Shown here in pieces: positions 19,907 to 31,378 of a stretch of DNA of 64,000 nucleotides (positions within the stretch are counted from its first letter, which is position 1; every line of letters starts with the position of its first letter). The DNA lies in assembly GCF_022832375.1 (NCBI RefSeq), contig NZ_JALHLG010000001.1:1-64000 (forward strand), read 5' to 3'. Under the pieces are notes generated by a model that ran no database searches, was not told the origin of the DNA, and saw nothing but the letters and a program-made list of their open reading frames with translations. The position numbers were made by a program, and so were the translations under genes. The DNA is from Novosphingobium beihaiense (lineage in GTDB: Bacteria > Pseudomonadota > Alphaproteobacteria > Sphingomonadales > Sphingomonadaceae).

Positions 19907-19934
19907 AGCTGGTGGTGGCAGGGCTTGAACCGAA
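19907..19934 (-). other. Probable distal attachment site: degenerate 3' end of tRNA-Tyr
   Basis: On the minus strand this reads GGTTC AAGCCCTG CCACCACCAGCT. The intact tRNA-Tyr end at 31287-31317 reads GGTTCGAATCCAGCCCTG TCCACCACCAGCT. The 12 nt CCACCACCAGCT are identical (19918-19907 and 31298-31287), and AGCCCTG matches after a one-base gap; a few bases are missing in the T-arm part. No cloverleaf can be formed here. It is read as the displaced, decayed target end left by integration. Confidence 0.5.
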
Positions 19935-20933: not shown

Positions 20934-21155
20934 CTATCCACCAAGACGGTAAACAGAAATACAAATCATTATTGTTCCAATAAAGAATAGAAACATTTCG
21001 CGCATTCTAAGTGCGCTGTTGTGCCGCTCGAGATCTTCCTTGGTCACGATTAGAGGAAGAGAGTCACGTTGAGGCGATTCCCAAGCCATTGCCAGAACGC
21101 GTACCCCCGCAATCAACACTGCCAAGTTTGCGACAAGCGCGCTCACCCAAGACAT
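20934..21155 (-). CDS. Small two-helix membrane protein, last gene of the nucleotide operon
   Basis: A 73-residue protein with two hydrophobic segments (about residues 4-25, VSALVANLAVLIAGVRVLAM, and 50-70, MFLFFIGTIMICISVYRLGG) joined by a charged ~25-residue linker (ESPQRDSLPLIVTKEDLERH). The ATG at 21155 overlaps the stop of the preceding gene as TGATG and has a strong GGGGGG ribosome site. A GTG at 21158 is also possible. The size and topology recall holin-like or pore-forming effectors, or a partner of the upstream membrane-anchored protein; no family is recognised. Confidence 0.72.
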   Translation of the reverse strand: MSWVSALVANLAVLIAGVRVLAMAWESPQRDSLPLIVTKEDLERHNSALRMREMFLFFIGTIMICISVYRLGG

Positions 21156-22132
21156 CACCCCCCCTTTTCACCGTCTTTAGGTTTATTTTCTTTCGTCTTC
21201 AGCGCTTCCTTCAATTCTTTAATCTCGGCTTTCAAATCGGAAATTTCCTTACGCGTGCCATCAATCTGCTGGCTAGCCGTATAAACAAGGCTCAGCGTGG
21301 GATAAAGAAGACCTCCCACAGAAAGGACCAGCGCTGCGATACCGAGTAGCCCGAAGTTTCGGATGCGCCTGTCAAACGATTCTACCTTCTTCTCTGCCTT
21401 TTGCGCCGACCGTTTCACGTCCGTAATCGAACTACGGATAGGCACGCCGCCGCCCGCTGCAAAGAGATATTGGCGAAAATCCTTACCTTTGGTGTGTTTG
21501 GGCAAGTCTGGGGTGCCAAACGGTTTATGGTAGAGTGGATTATCGGTAGTCGGATATGTCTTTGTAAATTCGACCCAAATGAGTCCTTCATCCAGGGCAA
21601 TGAAGTGATCATTGTTCGTAAGGTTGTGCAGAGGAATCAGAATTGGACGGTTATAGCCTGGATCGATGAGCGGCCCAGTTCCGAGGAGGATACCCCGGTG
21701 TACGTGTTTAATGCGCAGGTTGAACCTGACCGCGATATAGTTGGGAAGTCGGAAGGTCTCTTCGGTGGACACGAACGTAATGGAATTTGCCGGGAGCCGG
21801 ATATAGGGCTTCTCCCCCCTGTGAACGAGCTTCTGTTCTGCCAAGTCCCCATTGTCGTCGAACATGAAAAATGAACCGCCCGGCCGCATTTCGTAAGAGG
21901 CAGGCTTAACGAGATCCTTGTTCGGCTCATTTCCTTCGTGGTTCCAACCACGGAAAGGATGAATCATTGCCGTAGTGCGAATGTATTTGAGAAATGCGGA
22001 CGACCCCAACAGCGCGGACGGTATCTCAGGAAAGGGGTCGCTTGCTGCGTACTTTAAATGGCGCAAGTTGGCGTCTGCATCGCCTTTTTCACCCTCAGAC
22101 CGTAGCCATTCCTCTGGCTCAAGCGTGGACAT
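21155..22132 (-). CDS. dCTP deaminase/dUTPase-fold protein with C-terminal membrane anchor and coiled coil
   Basis: About 325 residues. Residues ~60-200 follow the dCTP deaminase/dUTPase pattern: KPASYEMRPGG (76-86; compare Dcd SxDxxLGxxF), then the region ending GPLIDPGYNRPILIPLHN (153-170; compare Dcd RIDPGWSGCIVLEFYN). The residue aligned with the catalytic Glu of dCTP deaminase is Pro167, so deaminase activity is doubtful and nucleotide binding is more likely. A membrane segment (about 259-285) and a Lys/Glu coiled coil (about 289-315) follow. ATG 22132 is chosen; GTG 22165 is possible. It overlaps the PurZ-like gene by 14 nt. Confidence 0.78.
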   Translation of the reverse strand: MSTLEPEEWLRSEGEKGDADANLRHLKYAASDPFPEIPSALLGSSAFLKYIRTTAMIHPFRGWNHEGNEPNKDLVKPASYEMRPGGSFFMFDDNGDLAEQKLVHRGEKPYIRLPANSITFVSTEETFRLPNYIAVRFNLRIKHVHRGILLGTGPLIDPGYNRPILIPLHNLTNNDHFIALDEGLIWVEFTKTYPTTDNPLYHKPFGTPDLPKHTKGKDFRQYLFAAGGGVPIRSSITDVKRSAQKAEKKVESFDRRIRNFGLLGIAALVLSVGGLLYPTLSLVYTASQQIDGTRKEISDLKAEIKELKEALKTKENKPKDGEKGG

Positions 22133-23168
22133 CGGCGCTGCTGATATCAATAAAAGCCTGCTCACCTGTACCTATCGCGTCGATGCGTCGACCGATCTGA
22201 CGTTGCACGTCAGCGATAAACGCGCAAGCCTTGTCTGTTAGAGTTTTACCGTTGGCTACTTTATAATCGACATGGTCCAGATGGTTCATAACGATCCTCT
22301 GCGGCTGATTGATCATAATGGCGCGGAGAACGACTTCTGCATCGAATTTTCCGACCCGCCGCAATCGATGGGTCACGCTGGTCAATTCGCCCCCCCACCA
22401 AGGCCCGCCCGAACTTTGAGCGATTTCATCCCAACTTGTCTCACCGTGCAGGGGGCCTGAATCTCCTGCTACTCGAATGGGGTGAGAGCGCAGCACTAAC
22501 ACTACGTCATCCACATCACTCGGCGCCAATCCCGCCTCAGACAAAAATCCTGCAGCCGTGGTATCGCGGCTTGTTGCTTTAGGCCAAACATCACCATGAA
22601 GCGCCGATAAGCCAAATCCTTGAGTTCCTTCGACGACAATTCGCTCACCTCGACTTAAAGCGCCCCGCATAAGCGCCACTGTGTCGCTCAAAAATGGCCT
22701 CAGTTGATCGCATTCAGCAGCCGGTATTCCACGCGGAATGCCAGGTGCGTATCTCGCCGCCCTCGCGAGAACGGCCGCTCCAGTACCTGAACCGGTTGAA
22801 CCAATCGTCTCGGTCAGCGTTGATTGTCGTTCCCATTCGCGATGTGCGTTTGTGATGACATGGGCACGAGGGTCTATGTGAATGTGCGCTGGCGAGATAC
22901 CTATTTCGACAATCTCACGCAGTAGTAGGTCGGGATCAACGTATGAGCCTGCGGGGATGACGGCGCCAATCCGACCATCGATTACCGCTGCTGGAAGCTG
23001 ACGCAATACATGACGCCTACCAGTGCTGCTGAATCCCGTGTGACCGGAATTGCTGCCGCCTGGTCGCACGGCTAGCGTCGACTTCGTGTCCCGCCGCACT
23101 GTGTCGAGCGCGACCTTTCCCTTCCCCTCGGAGCCATATTGGCCTCCGACTACCACACTTACTGGCAT
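22119..23168 (-). CDS. PurZ-like adenylosuccinate synthetase homologue (Ser13 variant)
   Basis: 349 residues, shorter than housekeeping PurA (~430). PurA motifs are present: GGQYGSEGKGK (8-18), GGSNSGHT (37-44, catalytic His43), IGSTGSGTG (122-130), EGTQG (180-184), DTTAAG (202-207), the aspartate loop TSVTHRLRR (263-271) and NHLD (295-298) at the GTP-base site. Asp13 of PurA, the catalytic base acting on IMP, is Ser here. As I recall, that change marks phage PurZ, which uses dGMP to make 2-aminoadenine nucleotides. It starts 7 nt after the upstream gene. It is not the cell's PurA, given context and missing residues. Confidence 0.82.
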   Translation of the reverse strand: MPVSVVVGGQYGSEGKGKVALDTVRRDTKSTLAVRPGGSNSGHTGFSSTGRRHVLRQLPAAVIDGRIGAVIPAGSYVDPDLLLREIVEIGISPAHIHIDPRAHVITNAHREWERQSTLTETIGSTGSGTGAAVLARAARYAPGIPRGIPAAECDQLRPFLSDTVALMRGALSRGERIVVEGTQGFGLSALHGDVWPKATSRDTTAAGFLSEAGLAPSDVDDVVLVLRSHPIRVAGDSGPLHGETSWDEIAQSSGGPWWGGELTSVTHRLRRVGKFDAEVVLRAIMINQPQRIVMNHLDHVDYKVANGKTLTDKACAFIADVQRQIGRRIDAIGTGEQAFIDISSADVHA

Positions 23169-23175
23169 TTGAAGC

Positions 23176-25125
23176 TCATGGTTCTAACTGCATGAATTTG
23201 CGTATCCGCTGACGAAGAGATACCAAGGAACCATCGTTCATCAGGACATCGTCTGCAACTCCTTCTAAAGCACTGACCCCACTTTCGACAGGATGTTCCG
23301 CCGCCCACTGAAGTTCTGTCATCCGCCCGACGCTTCGAGCGCGATTAAGCCGCGCGTCCAACGGCGCTTTCACGTGCACATGCTTGAACCCACCCCCAAA
23401 CCTTTCCCTAAGATAGTCGATATCCTCCGGCCAGCGGAGGCCATCAACGACGATCCGCGACGGCACCTCGCCAGGAATACGCTCAATTGCCTTTCTACAA
23501 AGCCAACGCTGACCTGGACTGCGATGAAGTTCGAGACCAATGCGCTGACGTGCTTCACGAGAGGGCATTTCCCCGCGTTCCCGGATCACATCATCAATGA
23601 CCTCGCTGATCCGCGTGTAAGCGAAACCCTCATCTTCAAGGATTCGTGCAGTCGATGTCTTCCCCGACATGATCTCTCCACTCAATCCAACGACCTGAGT
23701 AGATTCGCCATTGAGCCGAGGGACGATCATCGGCTCTTCTTCTGGACCAGACAAACCCTCCGTCATGCCGGCCAAATGGAAAGCTCCGACTATCGAGCAA
23801 GTAATCGCGTCAAGTTCATCGTGGGTTACGTGCTCGGTCTCGAACGCCCCATGGATTCCGAATTCCGACATGCCCAGTTTGAGCCATTCCACACCGGCTC
23901 CTTTACGAGGAATCCCCATAATATCTTGAGCAGCGCCCGGATAGCATTCAATAACCCGAATACCGCGCTCGCGGAGTCGTGTCGCGATCTCGATTCCTCG
24001 AGCAGTCAATCGCTGCATACTGGGCAGCAGGCAGGGATAGACATTAATCCCCCTGCGCTTGAGAATTCGTTCGCTGATCCGCATTATGCCAAAATGCCGT
24101 TGGGGATCATCGTCGAAGACGGTCGTTCTGCCTGTCGGCAAGCAGAGCGGTGAGTCGATCGACACAAGGTCGGGCTGGGCAGACACAATCTTATCTACGA
24201 TCTCGTCGTCCGTTGCGACTGCCTCGGTTTCCGCTTGGTTACCCCGCATAAAACACATGCCAGTGAGCCGCTTTTCGGAACCAGTTAGGTCCAAACCAAC
24301 TATAGTGGCATTAGCAACAAACGTGCCACTGAACAGAGATTCGAACGTGGCAGCGGGTCGAAGGTGCACTGGAATATGTCGACGACGGCGTGGAAGTCGG
24401 TATTCGTGTCCATCGGCCAAATATTTAAAGGAATACAATGACTTTTTGTACGCAAGTAAGTCCTGCGGCACTAATTCACTGACCACGTGATCTAGGATAT
24501 GGGTCATAGCTCGGACGTCGGCGCAATTGTAAGAGACGAGTTGCTCCAAAGCATGATCGTCTCCACGAAGATACCTGTGCCAAAGGAGGACGGCCATTGC
24601 GCCATCGACACCTTCCATTCCTTCGCGGCACTTTATCTGAAGCTGCTCCTCGATACGCTTCTGACCACCCACCAAACCGGCCCGGCGACAAGCGTATCGT
24701 AGATCGACATGGTGACTTGGCCAGTTCAGGTTTCCGAAGGCATCCTCGATGAATGGAAGGTCAAATAGCGTACCGTTGAACGTGACTAGGCTACGCGCAC
24801 TCTCAAGGGCTGAACGAAATGACGTGATATCGTCACCTGCAAGCCAGACATCATAACGACCGCCCATCTCGTAGCCTATGGCGGTGATGTAGTCGTAGTG
24901 CCTACTCAGACCAGTCGTCTCGATGTCGAGGAACATAACCTGATCAGGATGCGCGAGAAGTGGAGCCAAATCGCGGCTTGATTTCGGACGACTGGAAAGC
25001 TTCACATCGGTCGGTATAGGCATGGCATTGGAGTTCAAATGACGCTGTCCCACGCGCTTCCCTTGAGCCGCAGGCGCTTCGCGATCGTCCAAAATTCGAG
25101 TCAGTTTCGAGCCAGATAATTTCAC
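23176..25125 (-). CDS. Three-domain fusion: DEDD exonuclease-like (YprB/RNase_H_2), DUF429, P-loop nucleotide kinase
   Basis: 649 residues. Domain 1 (about 60-215) is a DEDD 3'-5' exonuclease-type RNase H fold: FLDIET (Asp67, Glu69), FNGTLFDLPF (Asp122) and YNCADV (Asp203). Domain 2 (about 273-455) matches DUF429, a predicted RNase-H-fold domain: GLDLTGSEKR (Asp279), SIDSPL (Asp324), ECYPGAAQ (Glu393), HDELDA (436-440). Domain 3 (about 477-645) is a kinase with Walker A GEIMSGKT (483-490) and IVVDGLRWPEDIDYL, like dNMP/dephospho-CoA kinases. The start is GTG at 25125 with AGGG 7 nt upstream; ATG 25023 is an alternative. It is the first gene of the four-gene operon. Confidence 0.83.
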   Translation of the reverse strand: MKLSGSKLTRILDDREAPAAQGKRVGQRHLNSNAMPIPTDVKLSSRPKSSRDLAPLLAHPDQVMFLDIETTGLSRHYDYITAIGYEMGGRYDVWLAGDDITSFRSALESARSLVTFNGTLFDLPFIEDAFGNLNWPSHHVDLRYACRRAGLVGGQKRIEEQLQIKCREGMEGVDGAMAVLLWHRYLRGDDHALEQLVSYNCADVRAMTHILDHVVSELVPQDLLAYKKSLYSFKYLADGHEYRLPRRRRHIPVHLRPAATFESLFSGTFVANATIVGLDLTGSEKRLTGMCFMRGNQAETEAVATDDEIVDKIVSAQPDLVSIDSPLCLPTGRTTVFDDDPQRHFGIMRISERILKRRGINVYPCLLPSMQRLTARGIEIATRLRERGIRVIECYPGAAQDIMGIPRKGAGVEWLKLGMSEFGIHGAFETEHVTHDELDAITCSIVGAFHLAGMTEGLSGPEEEPMIVPRLNGESTQVVGLSGEIMSGKTSTARILEDEGFAYTRISEVIDDVIRERGEMPSREARQRIGLELHRSPGQRWLCRKAIERIPGEVPSRIVVDGLRWPEDIDYLRERFGGGFKHVHVKAPLDARLNRARSVGRMTELQWAAEHPVESGVSALEGVADDVLMNDGSLVSLRQRIRKFMQLEP

Positions 25126-25333: not shown

Positions 25334-25672
25334 TCATAGAGCTTTGGATTGCAACGCCGCGTCGATAATGCCTTTCAGCCACCGCAATTCGCTGTCACTG
25401 AGGCTGGCAAGACGGCTTGTGATTTCAGTGAGCGGCAATCGCTGCAATTGTCCGGCTGGCAAGTGTGGGGTGAAAAGTTCGGCAGGGTCGACTTCGAGGG
25501 CATCCGCAAGTTGGACGATGACGCCGAAACGCGCACCACTGTTGCCGCTCTCGATTTTGGATACCATGTCCGTGCTGATACCTGCACGTTCGGCCAATGC
25601 TTCTTGGGTGATACCCAAACGCACACGATGCGCCTTTACCAGCCTGCCAAATCTCGTGCGCAAATCCACCAT
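25334..25672 (-). CDS. XRE-family helix-turn-helix regulator
   Basis: A 112-residue protein with an N-terminal Cro/CI helix-turn-helix (residues ~5-60: FGRLVKAHRVRLGITQEALA, then AERAGISTDMVSKIESGNSG) and a C-terminal extension (LTEITSRLASLSDSELRWLK). The ATG at 25672 has GGAGG about 5 nt upstream. It lies ~208 nt ahead of the nucleotide operon on the same strand and ~180 nt from the divergent small membrane gene, a position suited to controlling either. Its DNA target is unknown. Confidence 0.88.
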   Translation of the reverse strand: MVDLRTRFGRLVKAHRVRLGITQEALAERAGISTDMVSKIESGNSGARFGVIVQLADALEVDPAELFTPHLPAGQLQRLPLTEITSRLASLSDSELRWLKGIIDAALQSKAL

Positions 25673-25851
25673 GGTGCCTCCGCGCAGATGGGTAGCGAGG
25701 AGAGGAATTGAGCATGAGGGACGTAAATTAGATTTTTTGACATTCCGGTAAGTAAAAGGCAACTATCCGCAATTAGCTTGCGATCCATGGGCGTTAGATG
25801 GGTAGCTGGCACTAAGAGGCTCGTTCGTTTTGCAACGGGTAGGAGATTGTC

Positions 25852-26621: not shown

Positions 26622-28754
26622 CTACCACGCCGGATCATCAGAAGCAGGCACGGGGGCATCACGCGAAACCCTGCAAGGTGGTGCTAGTGGTGGGTAGTGG
26701 TCCATCTGGAGGGGTGCCACTTCGCCCAGTTTCACCACTTCCCCCACATAGGCACCACTACCACCACTTTGGCAGGTTTCTTCGCGAGGAATGCGGCACA
26801 GCCATTTCCCACCAGCATTTTGCTTTTCGAGAAATTCCCCGCTGTGCCTGTCCCACCAGCTTTCCGAAATTCCAATTTCGCCGATAGCGTGGGAGCGGAC
26901 ATCTGCCACGGCATGCCACTCGCCCCCTTGCTCGGCGAAATAAGCGCGGAGCCAACTGCCGAAAGCTGAGAGAAACTTGCTGGCCGGGCCGCGCGCACGG
27001 CCAATCGCAGTTTGTGGCGTAAGTGCGCTATCCAGTTCCTCCCAATCCGGCCGTGTTGCGTAAATCGGTTTGCCACTGCGCGGGTCGGTGCCGACCTCGA
27101 CTTTCACCGTTCTGAATTTCCATGATCCGCCTGGATGCTCGGGCAGATTGACCTTGACCTGCACTAACGCCTTGGCGTGCGGGTCTGCCCCTATGCCCTC
27201 TGCTGCCGGACGTTCGATTACCGCGCAAAGGCTTCGGCATGTTTGCGCAAAGGCTGCGGAGCCCAAGACACGATGCAACATTGCCCGTGTCGTGTCCTTC
27301 GCAAAGTGCGTGACGCAGACAATGGCGATGTTGAAATCCTGCGCCAGCCGCAGCCACGGTTCCAAAATGCTCCGCAATTGCCCGGCATCATTGAGATCGA
27401 CCTTCCGCAATTTCTGCCCCGGCAAGTAACTAGTGACCGGATCAATCACCAACATGGAAAAAGGCTGGCCTTCGTCGCGAGAAAATTCCAGCCAGCGAGC
27501 GACCGCTTGAAGGTCGTCCTGCATCGAGAATGCGGAACGCTGCCCGTCAATCTGGACGCCTTGGATTTCGATAATTCGAGAAAGTTCGGCACCGCAGGCG
27601 GAGAGCCGAGGCACGGTCATTTCCTCAATGCTGTCTTCGCTGCCCAGCCAGAGAACACGTCCCGGTTCGCGCGATGCGTCGAGAGCTTCGCCGGGCCAAG
27701 ACGCACCGGACGTCACGCGCGCCGTGATGTCGGCAAGGACAGTCGATTTGCCCGCGCCGGTCTCACCGGCGAACAACGTGATATAGCCCTTGGGGATCCA
27801 GCCTGGCCACAGCCAGTCGATTGCCCGCATGGGTACATTGTCCAGCGAACGGAATGCCAGTGATCGATGGCCTGTTGCACCAGTGTCGTTGGTCTCAGCA
27901 CGAGTGCTTTGCGCTGGGCCGCTAGCAGGATTTTGCCAACCTTGACGTTGTGCCTCAGCAAAGACAGCCCGGTAGCCCGTCTCTGTTGGCGCGAAACTGT
28001 CCCACTTCTCGGCATCCTGCGGCTGCCATTTCTTGGAACTCTGCGACCAGCTAAGCCACAATTCCCGCCCGGCCTCGCCAAGCTCTTTCAGCGCGTGGCC
28101 CATGGCAATCCAAAGATCCCGGCTATCAGCACGAAGAAAATTCAGTGCCGAGCGCAAATCCGCGATGACCTGTGGCGAAATCGTCTTTTCGATTTGAGGT
28201 TCAGCGGATTTGGAGCGGTTGCGTCCGGCCCTTTTCCTGTGCAGGGGAACAAGAACTTTCTCGATATGATCCGCGAGGCAGACGACTTGCCCGTCGCGAA
28301 TTACGTTTCCCGTGAAAGTGAAAAAGCGCCCAGCGGAATATGCCTCTATGCCGGTTCCATTCGAGCCAAGCGAACGGAATTGGCGACCGTAGCCGATGGC
28401 ATGAATGCCTCTTCCGCTGGGGCTTTTCTCCACATAGCCGGGCAGCGTGTCCGCCAAATCGGAAAGGCGGTTCTCGGTGATATTGTCCAGGTCAATGCCT
28501 TGCCAAAAATGGCCGGTAGCATCCCGCCCCAAGGCAAAGCCCACCCCCCAGCCATGGCCCCGTGCAACGGCAGCCCTCCAAGCCTCGTCATGGGTTGCGA
28601 GCCGGACGGTGTCCTCCGGGGTATCAGTGGCGCCGCGCGGTGTACCGTCCGTGTAAAACGGCACCTTGTCCGGCTTTGACTTTCCGGGCTTCCGGACCTC
28701 TTGCCAGATCAGCCAGCGGCGGGCGGCTTTCATGTGGTCGAACGTATTGCTCAT
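26622..28754 (-). CDS. Primase-helicase (PrimPol-like N-terminus, PriCT-2, RepA-type AAA ATPase)
   Basis: 710 residues. The N-terminal region (1-170) resembles primase-polymerase domains of plasmid/phage proteins: RWLIWQEVRKPGKSKPDKVP, FWQGIDLDN (residues 84-91) and SGRGIHAIGYG. Residues ~195-275 match a primase C-terminal (PriCT-2) module. From 320 comes a RecA/RepA-like ATPase: FAGETGAGKST (Walker A 330-337), LVIDPVTSYLPG (Walker B) and CVTHFAKD. It would start replication of the excised element. The ATG at 28754 overlaps the stop of the small upstream gene as ATGA. The C-terminal tail is proline-rich. Confidence 0.85.
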   Translation of the reverse strand: MSNTFDHMKAARRWLIWQEVRKPGKSKPDKVPFYTDGTPRGATDTPEDTVRLATHDEAWRAAVARGHGWGVGFALGRDATGHFWQGIDLDNITENRLSDLADTLPGYVEKSPSGRGIHAIGYGRQFRSLGSNGTGIEAYSAGRFFTFTGNVIRDGQVVCLADHIEKVLVPLHRKRAGRNRSKSAEPQIEKTISPQVIADLRSALNFLRADSRDLWIAMGHALKELGEAGRELWLSWSQSSKKWQPQDAEKWDSFAPTETGYRAVFAEAQRQGWQNPASGPAQSTRAETNDTGATGHRSLAFRSLDNVPMRAIDWLWPGWIPKGYITLFAGETGAGKSTVLADITARVTSGASWPGEALDASREPGRVLWLGSEDSIEEMTVPRLSACGAELSRIIEIQGVQIDGQRSAFSMQDDLQAVARWLEFSRDEGQPFSMLVIDPVTSYLPGQKLRKVDLNDAGQLRSILEPWLRLAQDFNIAIVCVTHFAKDTTRAMLHRVLGSAAFAQTCRSLCAVIERPAAEGIGADPHAKALVQVKVNLPEHPGGSWKFRTVKVEVGTDPRSGKPIYATRPDWEELDSALTPQTAIGRARGPASKFLSAFGSWLRAYFAEQGGEWHAVADVRSHAIGEIGISESWWDRHSGEFLEKQNAGGKWLCRIPREETCQSGGSGAYVGEVVKLGEVAPLQMDHYPPLAPPCRVSRDAPVPASDDPAW

Positions 28755-28945
28755 AGTTCGACCACCACAACGTCGAGCCCAAGCCCGCTCAGGAAATGAT
28801 TGCGCGCGTTCCGGTAGTCCGGCAGCAGCTTGAGTGCAGTATCGCGGGGCGGTATGCGCGGGCGCCATTCGCTATCAAGCCTCTGCCTGTTCCATCGAAA
28901 TTCGACCGCGTAGCCGAATGGCAGCTGATATAGGTGCTGGACCAT
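28751..28945 (-). CDS. Small hypothetical protein upstream of the primase
   Basis: 64 residues (MVQHLYQLPFGYAVEFRWNR...). No recognised domain. Support for coding comes from the exact ATGA overlap with the primase start and its fit between two genes of the same strand (3-nt gap from the HTH gene). It might act as an accessory replication protein, but that is only positional. Confidence 0.55.
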   Translation of the reverse strand: MVQHLYQLPFGYAVEFRWNRQRLDSEWRPRIPPRDTALKLLPDYRNARNHFLSGLGLDVVVVEL

Positions 28946-29426: not shown

Positions 29427-29870
29427 TCACTTTCCAGCGCTCACTGTTCCCACCAAACCACTTAACCACCGACGGGTATAGGCCACCGCATCCCTGACGG
29501 TAGCTTCAGAAACATGAAAGCGCTTCGCGAGATTGGACCTGATCCTTTTTGCCTCCCCTCGCTTTGCAGCTTTAAGTTCCTTCTCGTAGGCCAGTCCGAT
29601 CTCGATATTGCGTGAATGTAGGCCTTCACTTGGTCTTCCATCCCTTTGATGGACTGCGGAGATGCTGCACGGCGCTCCAGACCGCCCTTCAATTGCATCG
29701 GCGATCGCGCCAGAAACCTCAGGGGGAAGCGAAAAGCCATTCCTTAGATGTTCGGCGAGGGGACAAAGATCTGCATTACGCAATCCTACTTCGACTCTCA
29801 TCAGCGAAAAATCTTCTGCCGAAACCAGCATTTCGTCAGAGGAGAGCGAAAAGTCGCCTTCATCGTTCAT
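29427..29870 (-). CDS. Hypothetical protein with C-terminal helix-turn-helix
   Basis: 147 residues. The C-terminal third (AKRIRSNLAKRFHVSEATVR, then DAVAYTRRWL) looks like a helix-turn-helix. The N-terminus is acidic with repeated Ser/Glu (MNDEGDFSLSSDEMLVSAED). The ATG at 29870 overlaps the integrase stop as ATGA, so it is co-translated with int. The specific function is not known. Confidence 0.65.
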   Translation of the reverse strand: MNDEGDFSLSSDEMLVSAEDFSLMRVEVGLRNADLCPLAEHLRNGFSLPPEVSGAIADAIEGRSGAPCSISAVHQRDGRPSEGLHSRNIEIGLAYEKELKAAKRGEAKRIRSNLAKRFHVSEATVRDAVAYTRRWLSGLVGTVSAGK

Positions 29871-31096
29871 TTGCCACCCCTCGCGTTCCTGATTGGCACG
29901 ACCTTGGCACCGCCAGCCACCCCGCTTGCGCAATACTGTCCCCACGCCTTCATGAGTTTCACCCGCGCACCCGGCTGGTGCGACGTACCCAAGTAGGTGG
30001 TTCGACGATAGGCCGCCTGCACCGCGTCCGGCGTCTTGTGCGCAAGGGCGGCTTCCACCACGGCATCGGCAAAGCCCTCATTTGCGGCCCAATCGGTAAA
30101 AGCCGAACGGAAGCCGTGGACATGGTAGGGCTCGCTGGCGTCACGCAGCACCTTCAACAGCGTCATATCTGACATGGGCTTGCCGCCCGTGCCGGGAAAA
30201 ACAATTTCGGTGCCCGCCAGCTTCAATGCCGCCGCCTTCGCCAGAACCGCCAGAGCAGCGTCAGAGAGCGGAACGATGTGCGCCTTACCCCTTTTCATAT
30301 GATCGGCTGGAATCGTCCACAGACGGCCCTCCAGGTCAAATTCAGCCCATGTCGCCAGCCGCACCTCCTGCGAGCGCACGCCGCACAGGATAAGCAATTC
30401 GAGCGCGAGCCGCCCATATGATGGTTTTCGCTGCAAGGCAGTGATGAACGCAGGCACCGCGACGTAGGGCATAGCCTTCCGGTTTTCCCGCTCCTTCACT
30501 TGCCGGGGCAGGCCCCGACCCGCCTTGAGGCTTCCGCTGCCCGATGGTGCTTCTGTCGAGCGCCAGCCCTTTGCATGGGCATAATCAAGCACAGCGCATA
30601 TTCGGTTGCGCACTTGGCGGGCGGTTTCTGGAATGTCCTGCCAGATCGGCGTCAGCACACCGATAATATCAGCCGCCGTAATCCCGCCTGTCGGACGATC
30701 ACCGAGCTTGGGGAAAGCGTAATTCTCCAGACTGGCGAGCCACTGACGAGGATAGACCTCGCTTTTCCAACCTGATTCGTTTTCGGCGTGGTAGGTCTTC
30801 GCAGCTTCGCGGAACGTCACCTTGGCAGCGGCTTCATCCTTCCTCTCCACCAGAACGTCACGACGTTCAACCTTTACCGCCTTGCGAAGCTCTCTCGCTC
30901 GCTCTCTGGCTTCCGCCAGTGTCAGCAGCCGGGCGGAACCAATCCCGATGTCCTGCCGCTTTCCGTCGCGCTGGAGTCGCAAAGTCCAAGATGCGCCGCC
31001 GCGTTTGTCGACTTTCAGAAACAACCCGTCGCCGTCCTGATAGGTACCGGGAATTGCCAAAGCGGCCTTAACCGCCACTGCCGTCAGCTTTCCCAT
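29867..31096 (-). CDS. int: Tyrosine recombinase, P4-type integrase
   Basis: 409 residues: an N-terminal DUF4102-like arm-binding domain (MGKLTAVAVKAALAIPGTYQ, LFLKVDKRGGASWTLRLQRD), a core-binding domain, and the catalytic domain with Arg in LILCGVRSQEVRLATW, HGFRSAF (His-x-x-Arg) and the nucleophile Tyr in AAYRRTTYL. ATG 31096 fits the family start; an open frame running up to 31177 would read through the CCCCCACA repeats and is rejected. It points away from tRNA-Tyr, whose 3' end is the attachment site. Confidence 0.93.
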   Translation of the reverse strand: MGKLTAVAVKAALAIPGTYQDGDGLFLKVDKRGGASWTLRLQRDGKRQDIGIGSARLLTLAEARERARELRKAVKVERRDVLVERKDEAAAKVTFREAAKTYHAENESGWKSEVYPRQWLASLENYAFPKLGDRPTGGITAADIIGVLTPIWQDIPETARQVRNRICAVLDYAHAKGWRSTEAPSGSGSLKAGRGLPRQVKERENRKAMPYVAVPAFITALQRKPSYGRLALELLILCGVRSQEVRLATWAEFDLEGRLWTIPADHMKRGKAHIVPLSDAALAVLAKAAALKLAGTEIVFPGTGGKPMSDMTLLKVLRDASEPYHVHGFRSAFTDWAANEGFADAVVEAALAHKTPDAVQAAYRRTTYLGTSHQPGARVKLMKAWGQYCASGVAGGAKVVPIRNARGGK

Positions 31097-31102
31097 GTCA
31101 TT

Positions 31103-31180
31103 CCCCCACACTTTCCTCCCCCACATTGGAGGATCAAAATGTGGGGGAAAGCCAATCCTCCCCCACACTTCCCCCACATT
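31103..31180. repeat. Five copies of CCCCCACAYT between int and tRNA-Tyr
   Basis: Copies at 31103-31112, 31118-31127, 31160-31169 and 31171-31180 on the plus strand, and one inverted copy (AATGTGGGGG) at 31138-31147. They lie 110-190 nt from the tRNA crossover point, ahead of int. Their place and arrangement fit integrase arm-type binding sites, or binding sites for the AlpA/excisionase proteins. Confidence 0.7.
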
Positions 31181-31292
31181 CCAGCCCGGTTGCAGGCAAA
31201 ATGCGGCGGGCGCAGGCGGTCCTGCACGGAGAGAATACCCCAGGATTTCCGGGATTTCTACGGGCTTTCACGTGCCATAACGGGAAAGCTGG

Positions 31293-31378
31293 TGGTGGAC
31301 AGGGCTGGATTCGAACCAACGTACGCTTGCGCGGGCAGATTTACAGTCTGCTGCCTTTAACCACTCGGCCACCTGTCC
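31293..31378 (-). tRNA. tRNA-Tyr (GTA), attachment target of the element
   Basis: A class II tRNA of 86 nt with long variable arm. Acceptor GGACAGG (31378-31372) pairs with CCTGTCC (31303-31297); discriminator A at 31296; encoded CCA at 31295-31293. The anticodon loop is CTGTAAA (anticodon GTA) in the stem GCAGA/TCTGC. The 3' end continues into CCACCAGCT shared with the distal site at 19907. Confidence 0.95.

Follow-up and report, generated by a model that had tools for sequence, protein, structure and literature searches.

In the window, a stretch of 64,000 nucleotides from Novosphingobium beihaiense (contig NZ_JALHLG010000001.1, positions 1 to 64,000), three adjoining genes on the minus strand form an operon that resembles an immune system not described so far. 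Gene A (23176–25125) encodes a fusion of a DEDDy exonuclease, a DUF429 domain, and a P-loop kinase, gene Z (22119–23168) a PurZ-like (succino-aminodeoxyadenylate synthetase-like) protein, and gene D (21155–22165) a protein with a dCTP deaminase (DCD) fold on a membrane anchor. Judged from sequence, a defence role of the operon is likely. Our tentative reading, which we place a little short of even, is that A, Z, and D constitute a mobile bacterial immune (conflict) operon, in which an odd purine deoxynucleotide would serve as the signal and be read by D at the membrane. Literature searches, which scarcely covered preprints and subscription papers, returned no description of the operon. An earlier note on this DNA had described A and its link to Z; the third conserved gene D and the A–Z–D unit were absent from it and are new here.

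The three genes are conserved as a unit. Scanning 84,980 species genomes with an alignment of Z yielded 305 relatives, and the counts out of 80 loci given below refer to the best 80, which were chosen by likeness to Z, so that the fractions hold for the closest relatives only. A, Z, and D occur together in 64 of these 80 loci (including L089, whose Z frame had been missed by the picking of open reading frames), Z and D without A in nine, A and Z in two, and Z alone in five. In nearly all cases the order is A>Z>D and neighbouring genes touch or overlap: the spacing of A and Z ranges from an overlap of 68 bases to a gap of 39 bases in 53/56 loci, and that of Z and D from an overlap of 150 bases to a gap of 60 bases in 49/56. 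Searches begun from A led to the same arrangement. Within the order, 398 genomes were searched and revealed four more full-length A proteins with about 50% identity, all of them encoded beside Z and D; a search with the A profile in 398 genomes from the phylum added one further A, so that Z and D adjoin A in 5/5 cases; these five loci partly overlap with the 80 Z loci. Pairwise distances were correlated between the three proteins (Mantel test, r = 0.75 for A–Z, 0.58 for Z–D, and 0.46 for A–D; 0 of 2000 permutations). A, Z, and D thus travel together, although the distance correlation by itself is no proof of joint function. According to the record titles of the Z loci, the hosts span about a dozen phyla, including alpha-, beta-, gamma-, and zetaproteobacteria, cyanobacteria, Clostridia, Fibrobacteres, Spirochaetes, Prevotella, Acidobacteria, Dehalococcoidia, Latescibacterota, Verrucomicrobia, and Actinobacteria; one copy (L047) comes from Parasphingopyxis lamellibrachiae. 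Among 2.9 million viral contigs, Z is present, but neither A nor D was found, and phage records likewise contained no A. Scanning the genomes and viral contigs with single proteins returned nothing; alignment queries were needed to find the relatives.

Gene A corresponds to an open reading frame of 649 aa (25125–23176), and the fusion of an exonuclease, DUF429, and a kinase in one polypeptide, as proposed in the earlier note, was borne out. The frame stands, but its listed GTG start at 25125 is doubtful: the true start is probably the ATG at 25023 (M35), since homologues begin at about residue 33–35 of the window protein and residues 1–43 are disordered in the AlphaFold2 model (pLDDT of about 32; mean pLDDT 87.6 and pTM 0.86 for the whole model). 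The first domain (24484–24936, residues 64–214), which had been called YprB-like, was matched by Pfam RNase_H_2 at residues 63–213 (E = 2.4e-29; 102.8 bits against a cut-off of 22) and in 51/51 homologues, and a profile of the A family reached the structure of the MrfB exonuclease (8un9, E = 3.4e-7). Its residue pattern (Y199-x3-D203) refines the assignment to the DEDDy type, and we predict a 3'–5' exonuclease of the RNase_H_2/YprB-MrfB group. MrfB itself is a DNA repair exonuclease; it has the same N-terminal RNase_H_2 DEDD domain as A, but is not known to carry DUF429 or the kinase.

The second domain (23716–24315, residues 271–470) is DUF429-like. Pfam DUF429 (PF04250) does not match the window protein itself, but matches 37/51 close homologues (E ≤ 0.1, best 7.8e-6). 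Furthermore, the PADLOC model PDC-S44 covers the middle part of A (E = 1.7e-7), and elements 274–451 of the AlphaFold2 model follow an RNase-H-like order of strands and helices; DUF429 has been assigned to the RNase H superfamily (PMC3985635). A stand-alone DUF429-like protein of 206 aa with 50% identity to the middle of A is encoded on a Dyadobacter plasmid (L003:7992-8612), directly after a gene annotated as diadenylate cyclase.

The third domain (23179–23703, residues 475–649; Walker A G483-x4-GKT) gave a weak AAA_18/CoaE match in the window protein, and AAA_18 was matched in 51/51 homologues. The expected NMP-kinase type was recovered by structure comparison with 3lw7, an adenylate-kinase-related protein with bound AMP (VIA Z 21.4 and rmsd 2.3 over 168 residues). 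When the whole model of A is used, structure searches chiefly probe this kinase, and missing matches to other folds carry no meaning. The resemblance to the kinase of anti-phage dCTP deaminases, which the earlier note had pointed out, was confirmed by the kinase part of the PADLOC dCTPase model (E = 2.8e-9), and the dNMP kinase family phrog_139 of PHROGs also matches (E = 3.4e-9). We regard this part as a predicted NMP/dNMP kinase. Conservation of the named catalytic residues in homologues had been set beforehand as a test, and D67, E69, D122, Y199, D203, D279, D324, E393, D439, G483, G488, and K489 are invariant in 51/51 homologues.

Gene Z starts 7 bases after A in the window. It matches NCBIfam PurZ (NF038379; E = 1e-63) with 215 bits, and we call it PurZ-like because this falls below the cut-off of 300 bits; PHROG 1211 matches with E = 6e-70. 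The hallmark of PurZ, Ser13, is present in the window protein, in 34/34 aligned sequences, and in 78/79 Z genes of the genome loci, with the remaining gene unreadable by the search pattern. Among 147 phage PurZ proteins, 100% have Ser at position 13, compared to 99% Asp for a PurA group (PMC12884076), and PurZ converts dGMP to dSMP (PMC8342488). In a tree, the operon Z proteins and a few viral PurZ proteins form a separate clade with a support of 1.0. As the host genome carries its own ordinary PurA elsewhere (429 aa, Asp13), Z is an extra gene. On sequence grounds, Z likely belongs with the PurZ group and likely uses dGMP. A folE/queC/purB cluster of Rhizobium leguminosarum was set aside as another pathway, its PurA relative being of the Asp type. 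Lone Z genes of the same clade, without A or D, are found on viral contigs (L108:8001-9035, L109, L111, L113).

PurZ lets some phages substitute 2-aminoadenine for adenine, and a role in making 2-aminoadenine (Z) as a DNA base, as Z-genome phages do, could account for Ser13 and for the NCBIfam and PHROG matches that group Z with PurZ. Yet no polymerase or dATPase is among the conserved neighbour families, and the gene is tightly linked to a nuclease and a TM (transmembrane) protein instead, which makes such a role very improbable. The operon shares with the phage Z-genome cluster (PurZ, DatZ, MazZ; PMC8342488, PMC12884076) a Ser13 PurZ-like enzyme with dGMP as likely substrate and, in rhizobial variants, an HD hydrolase adjoining the PurZ-like gene; it differs in being bacterial, in that no Z polymerase was seen, and in its partners, A and a membrane DCD protein.

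The tie between A and Z is close. In line with the proposed link of A to its PurZ-like neighbour, their genes overlap or almost adjoin in the 53/56 loci given above, and elsewhere the kinase and the PurZ-like protein are fused. On plasmids of Rhizobium, Agrobacterium, and Methylobacterium, a single polypeptide comprises the kinase and Z, and a DUF7002 protein comes next. In acidobacterial loci, the kinase is a separate gene. Adjacency and fusion of the kinase and Z argue for one shared nucleotide pathway.

Gene D went unreported in the earlier note. Its start is likely the ATG at 22132, resulting in an overlap of 14 bases with Z. Pfam DCD matches the protein (E = 1.4e-6), and Foldseek aligned its model with the dCTP deaminase 3km3 (E = 4.6e-10, TM score 0.76 by target). 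A hydropathy scan predicts a TM segment at residues 273–291 (21293–21349, minus strand), followed by a C-terminal coiled coil; the structural model has helices at 246–270 and 274–326. After the DCD domain, nearly all D proteins continue with two to three TM segments or with a single one plus a coiled coil. In D, Pro178 takes the place of the catalytic Glu138 known from E. coli Dcd, a reference verified against 1xs1; Pro was found in 50/50 sequences and in every further D protein aligned. Since the catalytic Glu is absent, D as an active dCTP deaminase was rejected. Two distinct D genes per locus, one at times with three TM segments, occur in L035, L046, L062, and L088.

The sequences themselves show which domains are present, that their active sites are invariant, that Z has Ser13, that D has lost the deaminase Glu and bears TM segments, and that the operon is conserved, mobile, and accompanied by defence genes. 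We infer the following scheme for the substrates, the signal, its trigger, and the action of the effector. Some dNMPs, including dGMP, would be released by the exonuclease of A and others by the breakdown of DNA during infection. Z would, like phage PurZ, join dGMP and aspartate to N6-succino-2-amino-dAMP (dSMP), which the host PurB may convert to dZMP, and the kinase part of A would phosphorylate the product of Z towards the di- or triphosphate. The deaminase-dead DCD fold of D would bind the odd nucleotide, whereupon the TM part could damage the membrane and abort the infection; turnover of the signal is one possible task of DUF429. The third gene, D, combines a deaminase-dead DCD fold with a membrane anchor and so makes production of a signal for a membrane effector more probable than mere salvage or depletion. 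Besides the linkage of the three genes, Ser13, and the kinase–PurZ fusion, we count in favour of this reading that A and D are missing from the viral contigs, that a nuclease persists in A even where the exonuclease is exchanged, that a deoxynucleoside kinase is the fourth gene in 14 loci, the context of the element and of restriction–modification genes, and the precedent of Kongming. A more specific version, i.e., an immune family that makes dSDP/dSTP or dZTP from dGMP as second messenger by a PurZ relative and a dedicated kinase, and reads it by a DCD-fold membrane receptor, appears possible, but on balance doubtful. If true, one PurZ chemistry would be used by both the phage and the bacterial side across many phyla, a second kind of non-canonical deoxynucleotide signal would stand after dITP, and a metabolic dCTP deaminase fold would have become a receptor. 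The operon would also offer a role for DUF429, so far uncharacterised.

The same enzymes could act by depletion or poisoning. Z and the kinase would then drain dGMP/dGTP or build up replication-blocking dSTP/dZTP, with D regulating or recycling nucleotides at the membrane. Dedicated PurZ-type chemistry is present together with a kinase, the latter resembling that of anti-phage dCTP deaminase, and depletion of dNTPs is known from defences that use a dGTPase or a dCTP deaminase. However, D lacks the deaminase Glu throughout and has TM helices, the core holds no dNTPase, and a dGMP kinase would counter a drain of dGMP; we consider this explanation unlikely. The resemblance to the anti-phage dCTP deaminase (AvcD/dCTPase) is confined to the similar P-loop kinase domain of A. 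The operon has no zinc cytidine-deaminase domain, the deaminase-dead DCD fold of D belongs to another superfamily, and the AvcD model NF041025 (NCBIfam) scored 15 bits against a cut-off of 400.

Exchange of parts in A bears on a further alternative, in which the exonuclease is the effector on invader DNA, while Z, the kinase, and D form a sensor or switch at the nucleotide level. A proteins of about 910–930 aa (L052 from Fibrobacteria, L084 from Prevotella) have the exonuclease swapped for a PolX-like HHH_8 and PHP unit, and the same replacement is probably present in L093 and L094; a nuclease, though of a different kind, is thus retained by sequence across the exchange. Some members of A additionally bear helix-hairpin-helix extensions. 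That A always keeps a nuclease fits a DNA-degrading defence, but the 9/80 loci with Z and D do without A, and a TM protein is rarer as a mere switch than as an effector, so that this explanation seems distinctly unlikely.

Returning to the signalling reading, a candidate for another effector is the DUF7002 protein of the rhizobial variant. The exchange of partners (D or DUF7002) would resemble signal–effector immune systems such as CBASS and Pycsar, which likewise pair a signal maker with exchangeable effectors, one with TM helices; the operon differs from these in having no cyclase and in that its proposed signal is a modified mononucleotide. The nearest analogy for the signal is Kongming. 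Its components are an adenosine deaminase, HAM1, and SIR2, none of which is among the Pfam matches of the window operon proteins. In Kongming (KomABC), dITP serves as the immune signal (PMC12948488). Its pathway begins with dAMP, makes use of a dNMP kinase of the phage, and culminates in the depletion of NAD+ by KomB/KomC (PMC12948488). In both cases, although only as a proposal for the A–Z–D operon, a deoxynucleotide is base-edited and phosphorylated to a non-canonical triphosphate signal. No shared component was found; in the operon, the synthetase is PurZ-like, the kinase is built in, and the third protein is of the DCD-TM kind.

Genomic context supports mobility and defence. The window operon is located on an element of about 11.4 kb that is integrated at a tRNA-Tyr gene (31293–31378). 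An att-like repeat lies at the 3' end of the tRNA gene (31287–31306) and an imperfect copy of this end at the other end of the element (19907–19925); both were read by eye, as the repeat contains a one-base gap and was not listed by the repeat search. The G+C content is 51–57% over 20 to 27 kb compared to 62–64% outside. Pfam identified a tyrosine integrase (29867–31177, minus strand) and, upstream of the operon, a helix-turn-helix (Xre/HipB-like) regulator gene (25334–25762, minus strand). The element also encodes a primase C-terminal/AAA_25 helicase-like protein (26622–28868), as in satellite-type elements. Scans for sigma-70 promoters and terminators remained at chance level.

Such a context is hard to reconcile with housekeeping or nutrient salvage, in which A would degrade DNA and charge dNMPs, a deoxynucleoside kinase (dNK) and an RlmJ-like protein would aid the use of external DNA, and D would be a membrane nucleotide enzyme. 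DNA turnover suits all three domains of A, dNK is the fourth gene in 14/80 loci, adjoining D in most, and RlmJ-like genes occur in 12/80. The operon is, however, borne by an integrative element and very patchy (5/398 genomes of the order, none among the other genomes listed for the genus), and the expected product of Z is unneeded by known salvage; salvage is accordingly improbable.

Defence genes are frequent nearby. Type I restriction–modification genes (hsdM cluster) lie near 10/80 loci, and SIR2, AbiE, or AbiJ-type genes beside two of six annotated kinase–Z fusions. At E = 1e-15, 118 sampled neighbours matched 187 PADLOC models, compared to 8 for 118 random genes taken from four genomes carrying A or the kinase–Z fusion; with redundant models and few control genomes, the comparison is crude and no more than supportive. 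This crudeness and several other points weigh against the signalling reading. Z and D occur without A in 9/80 loci, and a Sinorhizobium medicae operon has no kinase. DUF429 and accessory genes (RlmJ-like, GDVGDFGKY family) are left unexplained. Moreover, D could possibly have a pyrophosphatase (dUTPase-like) activity because Asp168, presumably the position of the dUTPase aspartate, is kept (49 D and 1 E in 50 sequences).

Regarding the accessory genes, a family of about 250 aa starting with NRYxGDVGDFGKYGLLR is a frequent fourth gene near D (22 loci, e.g., L065:11144-11914 and L066:11146-11916). It has no significant Pfam match, and a distant relationship to RlmJ was not supported (profile comparison probability of 3%). 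The RlmJ-like gene (PF04378; e.g., L045:5854-6696 and L029:11193-12020) is placed upstream of A, in many cases with comparable spacing, or close to D, and may either belong to the system or mark a site of insertion. The kinase–PurZ fusion, a second architecture, was observed in L002:8004-10297, L006, L007, L008, L012, L013, L026, L010, and L011, and also on the viral contigs L134, L136, and L139; the fusions are mostly near a YfbR-like HD hydrolase. A possible third architecture is seen in L106:9001-12943, where an AAA ATPase gene and the GDVGD gene come after Z and both A and D are missing.
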